Shown in pieces: positions 1 through 42,751 of a stretch of 64,000 bases of DNA. The notes beneath the pieces were generated by a model that was not told the DNA's origin, did no database searches, and saw only the letters and a list, made by a program, of their open reading frames with translations. The stretch comes from Anas platyrhynchos (lineage: Eukaryota > Chordata > Aves > Anseriformes > Anatidae). The stretch lies in assembly GCF_047663525.1 (NCBI RefSeq), contig NC_092605.1, forward strand, positions 434,001 through 498,000. Reading direction: 5' to 3'. The translations under genes and the position numbers were made by a program. How positions within the stretch are numbered: position 1 is the first letter of the stretch; every line of letters starts with the position of its first letter.

Positions 1-1405
1 CCAAGGTCCTCAAGCAGATTTAATTTGAGATTTTTGTGTTGATTTCCTCCTCTGGTTACTGTACTCTGCCTGTGGAGAGCCGGCCGGCTTCGGGGCTGGC
101 TTCGATGCTACCTGAATTCCAAGATGCTTAGGGGCTTGCCGAAGGCATCCGGAGCCCCTTGTAAAAGATACCAGCCCCTAACCTGCAGCTTTCTCTGGCC
201 TCCAGCTGTCCTCCTCCACCTCACGCTGGGCTCACAGGTCACTTATTCTCCTTCCATCTCTGTCCCTGGCGCGCTGCGTACTCAGGCTCGCTGGGGTCTG
301 GCGTATGGCAGGGCAGAGCCGAGTAGCTGTGTTGTCAGTAGCGGCAGCGCCAGTTCTCTGCTCCCTTCTGCGAACCAAAGGCTCACAGCTGCTGGAGCAG
401 GCCAAGGGGAGAATGAAGGAGACTTGGTGCTGACCTTGTGCCTCGAGACAGGTGGCCCCAGTTCAACACCAGGTAGTTCAGCACCTTCTGGCAGCTGGCT
501 GCTGCTGCTTTGGCACACTTTGCCTGTTCCTGGCTCCCTGGTGGGAGGGCTTAATTTGTACCCGGGCTGCTAATGCCTGGGACTCATCAGTGCTGCCAAA
601 GCTCTTGGGTCCATATCCGATGCCGGATTTTCCTTGTGCTTAGATTGGGCCAGGTCCCTGCGGTGCTGACGATGAAGCTGCTCCTCTCTCCCTGCAGGTG
701 GAGGGAGAGGAGGGCACCAGCACTGGCCCCAGCCCCAAGCATCCTGGAGGTGCTCGGAGGGGGAGCGCTGGGCTGCTCTCAGCTCCCCCCAGCCTCAGTG
801 CGCTGGCAGCAATGCAGAAGGTGGCGGAAGGGGGCTGGGGGGGCTGGCGCTGACTTTGTGGAAAGAAGCTTATTTCCATCCTTGCCTGAGCGATGCCTCA
901 CTGTTCTAGCACTAACACAGCTTTCCAGACACGCACCCTTTGAAGAGACCTGGCCTCCACAGCTGGCAGAAGCGCTGCAGTGTGGCAGCTGTGGTGAGCA
1001 GGTCTGACTCGCTGTGGGCATTGGCTTCCCTGGCAAGGCTCAGGTTCCTTCTGCCTAACCACCTCTGCGCAAGGGAGAGTGACTGCACCCTCAGCCGTGC
1101 GGGCAGAGAGCTGCGTGGCCGCGGGGCTGCTCGCTGTCCCTGGGACACGCGGGGAGCTGTGGGAGCCGCCTGCTGCCTGCCTGAGCTCAGAGAGCTGGTG
1201 GGAGGGGGCTGCTGGGGCTCTGCCCAGCACGAGTGGGCTTCGTGGCGGATGCAGGGTGCAGGGGAGTTGTGGTTGCTGTTAACTTTCCTTTGTTGTCATT
1301 GAGCTATACTGTTCCCTTTTTTTTTCTTTTTTTTTTCTTTTTTTTCTTTTTTTTCTGTTGTCTGTCACTTGAGGAGTGTTGTAAATAAAAGCTTGTGTCC
1401 TTTTG
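1..1405 (+). other. 3' UTR and polyadenylation site of a + strand gene, probably MCRIP1
   Basis: A canonical AATAAA lies at 1384-1389 on the + strand, after a long T-rich stretch (1317-1356) and before a GT-rich segment. This is a normal 3' end of a rightward gene. No ORF in the first 1.4 kb resembles a known protein. One frame ends in TAA at about position 23 and could be the tail of a coding exon, but that cannot be decided here. In human, the gene convergent with and next to GCGR is MCRIP1, so by synteny this is most likely its 3' UTR. The identity is inferred from gene order only. Confidence 0.5.
1384..1389 (+). terminator. Poly(A) signal AATAAA of the leftmost + strand gene
   Basis: Exact AATAAA hexamer followed within 20 bases by a GT/T-rich element. 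It fits cleavage near 1400-1405. Confidence 0.7.
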
Positions 1406-35180: not shown

Positions 35181-36201
35181 ATGGCGGCGGGGGGGCGGCG
35201 CGGGGGCGGCTGCCTCCTGCTGGGCGCCGCGGGCGTCGGTAAGAGCCTGCTGGGGAAGCGGCTCCGCCATATCCGCGCGGGGCGGGGGGCACCGGGGGGG
35301 CTCCGAGGGTACCGGGGGGCTCCGGGGGGGTCCCGGTGCGGCGGCGCGCCCTCCCCGCCCGTTCCCGTCCTTAACGCCCCGCACAGCTGAGCGCCCGGGA
35401 CGGCGCCAAGGAGCTGGGCGAGCCCCCGGCCACGCTGCCCACGGTAGGTCGGGGCGGGACAAGCGGGGGCCCGGCTCCGTTCGGTCCCGGTCCCGGCCCG
35501 ACCCCGCCTTGTCCCGGCCCCGCAGGTGGGCACCAACCTGACGGAGCTGCCGCTGCCGCCGAGGGTGATGGTGAGGGAGCTGGGCGGCTGCATGGGCCCC
35601 ATCTGGCCCAGCTACTACGGGGACTGCGGCGCCGTGATGGTGAGACCCGGCCCGGGGGGGCGCGGGGGTGCCCGGGGCTCCCGGCCCCCCCCCCAGCCCC
35701 GGGACGCCCCCACGGAGCCGCCCCCTCCCTCCGCAGTTCGTGGTCGACGCCGCCAACCCCACGCAGGTGTCCTCGTCCTGCGTGCAGCTGCTGGCCCTGC
35801 TGTCCGCCCCGCAGCTCGCCACCGTGCCCGTGCTGGTGCTCTTCAACAAGATGTAAACGGGGGCGAGGGGGGCGCGGAGCTCCCGGGGCACCCCCGGAGG
35901 GCAATGCCCCGGGAGGCCGCTGGCTCTGTGGGGTGGCAGTGGGGCTGTGCGCCCCCGGGCCGGCTGTGTGGGTGCTGGGGGGGGGCAGGACCGCGGGGCG
36001 GTGGCTGACACGGAGCCCTCTGGCCGCAGTGACCTGCCCTGCTACATGTCGCTGGTGGAGATGCAGTCTCTGTTCCGCATGCAAGACATCGTGTCCTGCG
36101 CTACGCAGCCCGTCACGGTGCTGGAGGCCAGCGCGCGCGATGGCACCGGGCTGGCCGACGTCCTGCAGTGGCTGAGGGACACCTTCAGGGACCCCGGCTG
36201 A
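35181..36201 (+). CDS. ARL16: ADP-ribosylation factor-like GTPase 16
   Basis: Atypical ARF-family GTPase, reported in mammals to act in ciliary traffic and RIG-I signalling. Five exons join to 182 aa: 35181-35268, 35385-35443, 35526-35639, 35737-35852 and 36030-36201. The P-loop GAAGVGKS is at residues 15-22. The switch region reads ELGGCMGPIW instead of the usual DxGGQ, as I recall for human ARL16. The guanine motif is NKID. There is no N-terminal Gly for myristoylation. Intron 1 has no usable GT-AG pair that keeps the family sequence. An AT-AC U12-type intron gives KRLRQLSARDGAKELGEPP, which aligns without gaps to the human segment as I recall it. An ordinary GT donor at 35309 with an AG acceptor ending at 35392 is also in frame but would insert about 14 unrelated residues. 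Confidence 0.95.
35269..35384 (+). other. ARL16: Probable U12-type AT-AC intron (ARL16 intron 1)
   Basis: The intron begins ATATCC and ends AC. TCCTTAAC at 35368-35375 matches the U12 branch-site consensus TTCCTTAAC in eight of nine positions and lies about 10 bases from the acceptor, a distance typical of the minor spliceosome. The splice leaves C|AG, a Gln codon, and keeps frame. Confidence 0.75.
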
Positions 36202-37246: not shown

Positions 37247-40200
37247 TCAAAAGAATTGCAGAGGAAGGTGAGAAAAAAAATGTCTTTTCTGGAGCAACTG
37301 GACAAGGTGATATCTAAAACTGTTTTCTATGACGTCTGCAAATTCTTGCTCAATGGCCTGGTAGGTGTTTGGCTGGGGGGGAGTGTGTGTGGAGACAACC
37401 CTCTCCTGCAGCCCCGGGACGCCCTGCAGCAGCTTGCTCAGGCTCTCGTTCTCGGCACAGTTTCCGTATGGCCATCGGGAATTTTCCGTGGCGCTGCCTG
37501 CGGGTGGCCTGAAGTCAACCTTGAACATCTTCCTGCATTTCACGCAGGGCTCCTTTTCCACGAAGGCTCCGTGCATGTAGTAGAAGGCCCGGGACTGTAC
37601 CCCATCAGGGAACACGATGGCCAGGTCATTCTCCCCGTGGTGCACTGCGAACGCCACCGCCTTGTGCCAGGTCTGTAAGCACAGGATGGCAATCATGATC
37701 TTCCTCTCCAGCAGCCCGCTGCAGGACAGGGACGCTCCATAAAAGAGAGGGGTGGCTGCTCCATCCCCAGGGTCTCTGTAGATGCTGAAAGAAACAACTG
37801 CAGCTCTGAAGACGAACTGACTGGGCTTCAGGTTGGCTTCTTGCTCCAGTTCTTCTTGCAGAGTTTCGTTAAAGTCACGCAAGAAAGACTCCATTTGCTC
37901 TTGGGTGCTGCAGCCCGCTTCTTCAGTGCCCTGGGAACAGACACAGCTCTTTGTACAGACCCCTCCCTGTCTCTTTCATTCCCCAGGAAGCAATACTCTG
38001 CAATAGAAGGGGATGAGCGTGGGGTTTAAAGACAAACTCAGAAATTGGCTGTTCCCCTGAGTCCGTTCAGCACCAGCTGGTCAGTGCAGCTCACGGTGAC
38101 TGCAAAGTCTGAGAGAGAAACTTCTACAAGAAGGGCTCTGACTTAAGAAAACGGGGACATTTAGAGAAGCAGTAAGGAGGTTGGGTTGGCTTTGGCCATG
38201 AGTGTGTCTGTCTGTTGAAATGCTGCCTAGTGGCAGCCTGCCTTTGGAGCAGGATTGGCACCGTTGGAAAAAGAGATTGTCGTAAAGGCTAAATGCTGCT
38301 GGAGGTGTGTAAGGCTGCTGTTTTGAGGGAAATGGCCCAGCCACTAAATAGACAAAGCAGTGCCCAACAAAGCCAGTGGGCCTCCCCACGGCCGTGCTGG
38401 GTTTGTCCCACCACCCGTCCTGTCCCAGCTCCAAGGGAGCCACCTCCGGAGCCGTGCACGTGTGGGGATACTCACAAACTGCAGCAGGATGGAGTAGGGC
38501 GTCAGGCTGGGGAGGTGGGTGCTGTACTGTTCGAACGGCCTGGGGAACTTCGCCTGCATGATCTGGCAAGTCTTGGGCCCTAGGAAGTCAACGGGTTTCA
38601 CCATCCTCTTGTGCAGCCTTCCGAAGAAGAACACCGCGTGCAGCACCTGTTGGCGAGCAGAGACCCCGGCACTGAGCTGTGCCTGGAATGCGGCTGCAGA
38701 GCCCCCGCGCCGGCCTGCCAGGACCCCAGCCCCCCGCCCCGTACTGCCCCTCCCTGCCTGCCCGTGCTCCAAGCAGCTTCTCCACTCTGGGCACCAGCTC
38801 CCTGCTCAAACCAGCAGCAGTGCCTCTGGCCTGGGGCTGCTGCCGGAGGAGCTGGGACCTGCAGCATGGCCATGGACGGGTGGGGAGGACAGGGGTGGCA
38901 GCGCTGACCTTTTCTATGTAGTGCTTTTTGATGTCTTCAGCCAGCTTCTTCTGAGTCAGCAACTTCAAGAAGTGCTTGATGAAGAGATTCCCACTCATCT
39001 GTAACTGGCTTTTACACCGCTCCTCTCGCTCTGCCAGCATCCTGCTGAAGCACAGAGGAGCGAGTGGCAGCAGTGCTGGGGTGCTCTGGGCTGTGGGGCG
39101 AGCGCTCATCCCCCTGGGGCATGGCCGGGCTGGGGGTGGCTGCTGGCAAGCGGGGAGAGGGGAGGCGAGGCTCAGCCTTACCTCTGAGCGTCCTGCACTG
39201 CAGCATGGCCAGGGCCCTGCGGAGGAAGAGGAGGCTTGGTGGCGTGGCACTGCGAGGAGCGTGGCTCCGAGCTGCGGGCAGGCGTGGGAGCAGAGCTTGC
39301 CACGGGCTGGTGGCCGCACCGTGCGTATCTGCTGCCTGCCCCAGGGACTGGAGTGCACTGCAGGACACAGCCCGGGCCCAGCCCCTCGGCGTGCCCAATG
39401 GCACAGGAAGCCAGGCCCAGCACTGCAGAGGCTTGGGTGCGCCAGAGGCAATGCCACGCACCAGGCACTGCATGGGCTTGGGATGTCCCTCAGCATCTGA
39501 AGATGGCAGCACCGGTTCCTGCCGGCCAGGATGCTACACAGGAGCATCCCTCCTGGCCTCCTGGGGAGAAGGGGCAGTGCTCACACACCTGGTTTTGGTG
39601 CACAAAGTTCATCGGGAACACGTAGCCTGGTACTGCAGCGGTTGTGTCCTGGTCCGCAGGGCTCCAGGAAAACAGCCCACAGAACGGTGCTGTGCTGGAA
39701 GGGCAGGAGGCTGGGTCACCCCGAGGCTGGCCAGCTCCTGCACCTGTGCCTCTGGGGACACCGGGCAGGGGCCGTGGTGCCGGCTGCTTGCTCGGGCAGC
39801 GCCATGCAGTGTGTGGCTGGGGGTCCCGGGGCTGCTCCCAGCTGGAGCAGACACCTGAGGGCACCTTCCCTGACAGCAAGCCATCAGCAGAGCTGCTGCA
39901 GCCCCAGACTGAGCAAGTTTCACGCTGGGGAGGCTGCCTTGGCATTCCTCTACCTTCAGCTGCAAGCCCAGGAGGGCTTCCCTGGGAGGGTTTGGGGATG
40001 GGTTCCTGCTCCCGAGGGGCCTGTCTGCAGGGGAAGCAGGCAGATTGCTTACAAGCAACAGCACGTACCTGGCAGAAGCAAAGGATCCTTGGAGTCTGTG
40101 CTGCCTTCAAGCTCTTGAGCCACAGAACAGCGCAGGGTATGCTGTCGTAACGAAGACGCCCAGGTCCCCGCACTGCCACCAGCGCTTGGTGCAAGCACTC

Positions 40201-40298
40201 CTCCCCCAGTCCCAGCCTGAGGAATCCCACCGGCGTTTGCTCGAACCTGGTGCTTCGCAGCCTGCTGCCGGCACAGCGGCTTTTACAAATGTACTGCT
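37247..40298 (-). CDS. Unrecognised multi-exon protein ('gene X') with PCVKC and NCAE motifs
   Basis: I do not recognise this family. Exons in transcript order: about 40298-40069 (5' limit unsettled), 39648-39589, 39216-39182, 39041-38909, 38646-38476 and 37930-37247. The five internal junctions keep one open frame, giving 360 aa after the first listed exon and about 415 or more in total. No ATG is in frame in the first exon, so an upstream exon is missing. The middle is helical and basic (LFIKHFLKLLTQKKLAEDIKKHY). The last exon has strand-like segments (AAVVSFSIYRD, PLFYGASLSC), a helix, then EPCVKC (Cys codons within 37535-37546) and WPYGNCAENESLSKLL (CAE at 37451-37459). PCxxC plus [HC]AE is the zinc site of cytidine-deaminase-fold proteins, but there [HC]AE comes first. 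No signal peptide or membrane segment was seen. The gene is real with good confidence; its function is unknown. Confidence 0.8.
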
Positions 40299-41562: not shown

Positions 41563-42751
41563 TTAACAAGCAACAGCAGGCACAGTCTCCAGTAGCTCCA
41601 ACAGGCTATGGAACTCTTCCTCCCCTTTCTTAATGAATTTATTGACGTTCTCTCTGATCTGCTGGACTGTTGGGTCTTTGTCCCGCTTCTCCTCATCCTG
41701 TTGGAAGAACAATCAGGGAACTGTTAGGGACCGAAGCAGGTGGGATCAATGGCACGGCAGACCCCAGCACGCAAGCAAACTCAGGCTGACTCTTTCCAAG
41801 GCAAGAAGAGCTGCAGATTCCTTCCCCGCCAGCCCAGCTTACCAGCGGCACTATGTGCTCTCCGCAGCGGTACACCTCCTTCCCCAGGAGCTGCAGCCCT
41901 ATCTCCAAGAACTCGGCGAAGCTCCGGGCCACCTTGTGCAGCGTCTCCTCCTCGTAGGCGTACACGTCGCCGCTCTCCGCGACGAGGATGACGAGCTGCT
42001 GCCCCGTGGCCAGGCAGGGCACGTCATCCACCGTGCCCGCCACGATCATCTGGGTGGGCTGCGGCAGGTAGAGCGCCTGGCACCACCGCAGCAGCTCGTC
42101 CTGCCCCTCGTACAACGTCCCCTCCAGGTCGCCCACCCGCAGGCACAGCTGGGGCTGGGCCTTGAAGAACACCAGGGCGCCGCGGTTCTTCTGCACGTAC
42201 TCAGAGACCATCTCCAGGCTCTGAGGCGCGGGGCCACTGCTGATGGCCGGGGGCTGCCCGCCCGGCTTCTGTGCCACTGTCGAGGGGCTGCTGCAGGGCC
42301 GCGGGGGGAGGCGGAAGAGGCCGCAGCGCTGCACCCCTAGGCTGGGGACGGGCCGCCCGAGTCCCGGTGCCAGTGCCTTCGTGGTGCCACCCCGGTGCCC
42401 GTACACACGGTCCCCGGTGCCGTTGTGAGCCCTCGACCTGCCCGAGGAACGACAGCGCCTGAGCGGGGGCCGCGACGGCTGCGGCCCGGCGCAGGCCCAG
42501 CCACGGCCGCTCCCGGCCTCCCGGTGCCCCCGGCCCGTTCCCGGTCTCCCCCCACCCCCCCAGGCTCCCCGGCCTGTTCCCGGCCTCGTCCCAGCGCCCC
42601 CCGGTTCCTGGATCCCCCCGCGCGGCCTCCCCGGTGCCCGCCGCGCCCTTGTTCCGGTTCCAGTCCCGGCCCCCGCGGCGCCCCCGCGGCCCTCCCGGTG
42701 CCCCCCCGGTGCCCCCTACCTGCCCCTGCCGAGGTACCGGCGCGGCGCCAT
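41563..42751 (-). CDS. Unrecognised 204-aa protein ('gene Y') with a SUKH/SMI1-KNR4-like C-terminal pattern
   Basis: I do not recognise this gene by name. Three exons join in frame: 42751-42720 (starts MAPRRYLGRG), 42290-41843 and 41697-41563, giving 204 aa. The first junction leaves AG|C and is in phase; initiation at ATG 42211 (residue 38) is an alternative. The N-terminus is a short Pro/Ser-rich linker. Residues about 38-148 look like one globular domain. It ends GDVYAY (118-123), then HKVARSFAEFLEIGL (129-143), the order V-Y, acidic loop, 'xVAxSFxxFLxxGL' seen at the end of SUKH (SMI1/KNR4) and US22-type domains. A charged helical tail follows (VQQIRENVNKFIKKGEEEF). The domain call is by eye only. 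It lies upstream of gene X on the same strand, at the junction of two human-syntenic blocks. Confidence 0.75.

Follow-up and report, generated by a model that had tools for sequence, protein, structure and literature searches.

A vertebrate gene family with deaminase-type motifs in reversed order, beside a US22-family gene in the mallard

Gene X in the mallard window

The window analysed here, a stretch of 64,000 nucleotides of the mallard (Anas platyrhynchos) genome (contig NC_092605.1, positions 434,001 to 498,000 of the forward strand), carries on its minus strand a gene, called gene X below, whose last exon encodes a PCxxC motif followed by GNCAE. These are motifs of the deaminase superfamily in the reverse of the order found there, and our analysis suggests that gene X descends from a deaminase. 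It lies between an ARL16-like GTPase gene and a US22-family gene, called gene Y.

Gene X is a real gene. Its five coding exons (1047 nt, with GT..AG in all four introns) give a spliced product of 348 amino acids, to which 348-residue models from swan, goose and ruddy duck align end to end at 79-82% identity, and a 330-residue mallard model at 95%. A search with the last exon of the genome from which the window comes (42 contigs, 1,261,873,621 bases in all) finds a single match, namely the exon itself. An earlier note on this DNA, written from the letters alone, had proposed six exons reaching position 40298; homologues back five coding exons starting at 39612, and sequence 5' of that point would be 5' untranslated region or part of an alternative isoform, with a longer N-terminus as in the 457-residue pintail isoform P0026. 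Where that note had placed C129, C132, C158 and E160 in a last exon of 227 residues, it was right: all are found at those places, in window 37930..37247 on the minus strand. Downstream of gene X, at 35500-36201 on the plus strand, lies the small GTPase gene, which we take from its sequence to be ARL16-like and which ends near 36200. The window contains no GAAANNGAAA, the form in which interferon response elements were sought, on either strand. The features of genes X and Y are collected in Table 1.

Table 1. Features of genes X and Y, in window coordinates
Feature	Position	Strand	Basis
Gene X coding exon 1 (MNFVHQNQ)	39589..39612	-	start codon, GT donor; aligned from residue 1 of the 348-residue swan and goose models
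Gene X coding exon 2	39182..39216	-	AG/GT sites; frame preserved
Gene X coding exon 3, onset of helical N-terminal domain	38909..39041	-	AG/GT sites, homologues; helices in model
Gene X coding exon 4, helical N-terminal domain (LHAVFFFG, TPYSILL)	38476..38646	-	AG/GT sites, homologues
Gene X last exon, 227 residues, phase 0: end of helical domain and entire alpha/beta deaminase-like domain	37247..37930	-	homologues, model
Codon of the fourth near-invariant Cys (exon residue 70, C173 of P0001)	37721..37723	-	conservation in A2, A4
PCVKC motif (exon residues 128-132)	37535..37549	-	sequence, model, conservation; EPCVKC at 37552..37535
GNCAE motif (exon residues 156-160)	37451..37465	-	sequence, model, conservation
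Gene Y US22-domain exon	41843..42232 (5' limit provisional)	-	PF02393, E=1e-31
Gene Y predicted last coding exon, with stop	41563..41697	-	in-frame GT..AG join; no meaningful Pfam match

An old family with a conserved motif set

Three protein searches with gene X returned 25, 52 and 82 rows at E<=0.001, 0.01 and 1, and 77 of the 82 rows of the widest search have E<=0.001. The named rows come from waterfowl, galliforms, ostrich, turtles, frogs, gar, bowfin, sturgeons, paddlefish, catfishes, a sucker, salmonids, a molly and the sea lamprey, and nearly all are annotated as uncharacterized or hypothetical. There are no mammals among the named rows of the 82, in a word-based search that depends on shared five-residue words, that left some rows nameless and that was not supplemented by a separate search for a mouse, human or chicken orthologue. 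No family in Pfam or NCBIfam covers the protein, a sequence search of the PDB returned nothing meaningful, and a literature search with the locus identifiers of six homologues found none of them mentioned. Judged by its sequence relatives, gene X is a member of an old, unannotated vertebrate family. In chondrosteans (sturgeon and paddlefish models P0055-P0068) there are several paralogues per species, as against one match in the duck, and one of these paralogues has lost C232, which suggests a growing and partly decaying set.

Beyond vertebrates, a gene X profile matched 12 of 398 bacterial genomes at E<=1 (best 0.017), but the stretches were short or contained stops and were not accepted as relatives. 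Nine stretches of viral contigs fit the gene X pattern, none of them confirmed. The PADLOC model CARF9-HEPN was matched by 2 of 44 members (E 0.00098).

Conservation was read from two overlapping alignments of 44 rows each, A2 and A4, which together hold 71 distinct proteins, many of them close kin; residues are numbered as in the mallard protein P0001. In A2, C232 and C235 are present in 44/44 rows, C173, C261, E263 and E265 in all 43 rows that cover their region, and H88 in 41/41. In A4, P231, C235, G259, C261, A262, E263, E265 and S268 are present in 44/44; C232 is kept in 43/44 (one sturgeon paralogue has Arg), C173 in 42/43 (a molly has Thr), and H88 is not retained in salmonids. By these alignments no positions of the protein are more stable than the three Cys and the Glu singled out in the earlier note, and beside them stands a near-invariant fourth Cys, C173, which that note had overlooked. 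It had reckoned with the loss of the Cys and Glu in orthologues, or with a confident match to a non-enzymatic family, as grounds for abandoning a deaminase-type reading; the residues are near-invariant from lamprey to birds, and no confident match of that kind was found. Both superfamily elements, [HC]xE and PCxxC, are present and kept in the family, but PCxxC comes first and GNCAE second both in the mallard gene and in its aligned homologues, whereas in the deaminase superfamily [HC]xE stands ahead of PCxxC.

The AlphaFold2 model has a mean predicted local distance difference test score (pLDDT) of 92.9 at full length and 88.6 for the C-terminal domain alone. Its elements are strands within 148-169, a helix at 176-189, a strand at 214-222, PCxxC and a strand at 242-244. 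PCVKC forms the start of a short helix, while in GNCAE the Cys lies right before a helix and the Glu in its first turn, so that C232 and C261 are both at helix starts; C173 lies right before helix 176-189. This placement at helix starts is as in deaminases. A Foldseek search of the model against the PDB and viral libraries gave no match at E<=0.001; a swapped order would, however, be enough in itself to defeat a sequential structure search.

Restoring the motif order

Native members of the family match the profile of the YwqJ-like deaminases (PF14431) in halves. Residues 150-192 of the Salvelinus protein P0073, which include PCxxC, align with profile positions 91-132 (E 0.0012), and residues 305-325 of the catfish protein P0025, which include GNCAE, with positions 65-85 (E 0.13), so that the two halves match in the order opposite to that of the profile. 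The GNCAE stretch of the duck also matches positions 36-65 of the cytidine deaminase profile TIGR01354 (E 0.03), as do 2 of 44 members, the best at 0.0033. Against all of this, unrelated families score as high (Pecanex_C, 1.6e-4). Single weak matches are therefore no proof, and for this reason we carried out an order-swap test in ten members, placing the GNCAE segment in silico ahead of the strand-PCxxC segment by one design that was fixed before scoring.

Once the order is restored, both halves of PF14431 match: eight of the ten swapped sequences are hit, at E 1.6e-6, 9.1e-5, 0.011, 0.013, 0.038, 0.097, 0.25 and 0.58 (six at E<=0.1), and only gar and Russian sturgeon give no match. The native forms of the same ten, scored at full length and not trimmed, match in 2/10. 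These two half-matchers gain 9.3 bits (P0073, from 19.5 to 28.8) and 10.2 bits (P0025, from 12.9 to 23.1) by the swap. The best native score thus stays below the Pfam gathering score of 25.9, and swapped P0073 is the sole sequence above it; for comparison, the scores of two bacterial YwqJ domains are 27.1 and 29.3 bits. When the flanks are shuffled and the motifs preserved, 0/10 match, so the flanks count. Among 24,736 families YwqJ is the top match of 8/10 swapped sequences, while PF00383 is matched by one.

Against this stands that profiles of our own making failed to discriminate. With a self-built profile of six bacterial YwqJ sequences, hhalign scores 24.6 for the swapped and 26.0 for the native order, with alignments that span 61 and 31 columns, respectively. 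In single-sequence scoring 52 of 69 members gain by the swap, by a mean of only half a bit, and with a Bacillaceae cytidine deaminase model another rearrangement scored equally well. In our judgement the rich Pfam model detects a real relation for which small self-built profiles are too weak.

The swap does not amount to a plain circular permutation of YwqJ, which we reject because the spacing from PCxxC to GNCAE is short (about 25 residues and one short strand, with two strands before PCxxC); a relocated helix fits better. Nor did a doubled profile yield a permuted alignment with Bacillaceae cytidine deaminases; only the PCxxC helix aligned, with probability 4-8% (reversed control <1%). PF14431 itself is rare, being found in 0/5, 5/299 and 2/398 genomes of three groups, the last two of which share one matching genome. 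The suggestion of a rearranged deaminase with reversed motifs, made in the earlier note, has thus gained from the conserved order and from the contrast between swapped, native and shuffled forms; its six-exon model is the part that fell.

Gene Y, competing explanations and known systems

Gene Y lies 1.95 kb upstream of the gene X start codon, on the same strand. It matches PF02393 with 110 bits, well above the cut-off of 35 bits, and is the only match to that family found in the 1.26-Gb genome. Two Chinese-sturgeon models, P0044 and P0062, from different contigs of one assembly, have a US22 domain fused to a gene X family protein; these domains are 37% and 41% identical to gene Y over 126 and 87 residues. 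Since the two are neighbours in the duck and joined in the sturgeon models, they are adjacent in both, an adjacency kept across species in so far as the duck and this one sturgeon assembly, with its two models, show it. In bacteria, the Imm-SUKH row of Table 3 in PMC3482391 lists YwqJ deaminases as partners of SUKH-superfamily immunity proteins. The US22 family belongs to the SUKH superfamily according to PMC11065284, which also reports viral US22 members that counter host antiviral responses. In six bacterial YwqJ loci the gene directly downstream is SUKH-3 in one (E 1.2e-27), encodes a MORN_2 protein in four, and is nothing recognised in one.

The N-C-A-E form is common to gene X and two bacterial YwqJ domains (L085, L086). 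At L086, positions 1501-1794 on the minus strand, a YwqJ-type domain has SNCAE as its first motif and a SUKH-3 immunity gene downstream. For SMI1_KNR4 (SUKH-1) a single match was found in the duck genome, and it lies on another contig (G000:C5:48684481-48684591, L097).

How might these observations fit together? Gene X is most likely a zinc enzyme, or former enzyme, of deaminase descent, with its activity a prediction from sequence. More specifically, we give an even chance to its being a YwqJ-derived deaminase-type effector with a relocated CAE helix, for which zinc binding, catalysis and pairing with Y are all predicted. On this view the N-terminal part of the protein would be a helical domain and the C-terminal part an alpha/beta domain from a YwqJ-type bacterial toxin deaminase, whose helix with [H/C]AE would have moved from ahead of the strand-PCxxC unit to behind it. 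Zinc would be held by three Cys, namely C232 and C235 from PCxxC together with C261 from GNCAE; E263 would act as proton shuttle, and C173 may complete the site or modulate it. The domain would catalyse the hydrolytic deamination of a base, either of a nucleotide or within a nucleic acid. The protein would be an innate effector, restrained by or acting with its US22 (SUKH-superfamily) neighbour, protein Y, by analogy with bacterial YwqJ deaminases and their immunity proteins. As for the reversed order, a tandem duplication after which each copy lost one of the motifs would account for it, C173 being a possible relic. A wider scenario, which we consider rather unlikely, is that X and Y form a domesticated toxin-immunity pair spanning jawless fish to birds, a reordered-motif deaminase with a US22/SUKH antidote, whose effector was lost in mammals, and that the US22 proteins found in herpesviruses and other viruses of animals are captured antidotes that silence the effector.

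Two other explanations must be weighed. The domain could be derived from a deaminase and yet be catalytically dead, with C173, C232, C235 and C261 binding zinc structurally in an adaptor or sensor. The conservation of C173, little short of that of the other Cys, agrees with this, and four Cys ligands would leave no room for water; but E263 and E265, which are kept throughout A4, would be superfluous in a Cys4 site of purely structural function, and the molly with Thr for C173 retains the rest, so that we regard loss of catalysis as unlikely. Alternatively, gene X could encode an unrelated alpha/beta zinc protein with convergent motifs, the swap gain arising from the favourably spaced joining of two zinc-helix motifs. 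A confident model that finds no significant structural match, poor profile-profile scores and a weak local effect with hidden Markov models are all consistent with convergence; we nevertheless think it improbable, since motif-preserving shuffles never match YwqJ, YwqJ ranks first for most swapped sequences, and the swapped order alone would foil a sequential structure search. Very unlikely, finally, is a canonical-order core whose first ligand is replaced by C173 and to which GNCAE, carried by a later helix, contributes either a fourth ligand or just the Glu, although C173 does lie right before the helix that would take the place of the first motif and sequential VIA alignments begin at strand 1, pass through PCxxC and reach the strand after it (3r2n: 66 residues, 3.5 A, model 7..112 with chain 23..113).

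Reading gene X as a YwqJ-derived deaminase, we can set it beside known systems. The YwqJ-like deaminases, domains of bacterial polymorphic toxins, share with gene X an [HCN]xAE-type helix and a strand-PCxxC unit, with GNCAE or SNCAE in two bacterial loci; SUKH-family partners are listed for them, and swapped gene X members reach their profile. In gene X, by contrast, the two units are reversed, a helical N-terminal domain stands in place of secretion and toxin modules, and the gene is a vertebrate chromosomal one. Tetrameric cytidine deaminases (TIGR01354) and dCMP/cytidine deaminases (PF00383) resemble gene X in the weak match of the CAE helix and in the PF00383 match of one swapped sequence, but have the canonical CAE then PCxxC, and structurally the model does not match them significantly. 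Vertebrate deaminases of the AID/APOBEC, ADAR and TadA types have zinc motifs with the same residue set; unlike gene X they have HxE before PCxxC, and no sequence match to them was found here. In the portions of the literature covered by our search there is no description of an active-site order rearranged as in gene X. The US22 family (PF02393) has a clear member in gene Y, which is cellular rather than viral. If our reading is correct, gene X represents an unrecognised vertebrate deaminase-type family with a rearranged active-site order, and a host US22 gene fixed beside it would make this deaminase-like protein a directly testable candidate target of the US22 family.
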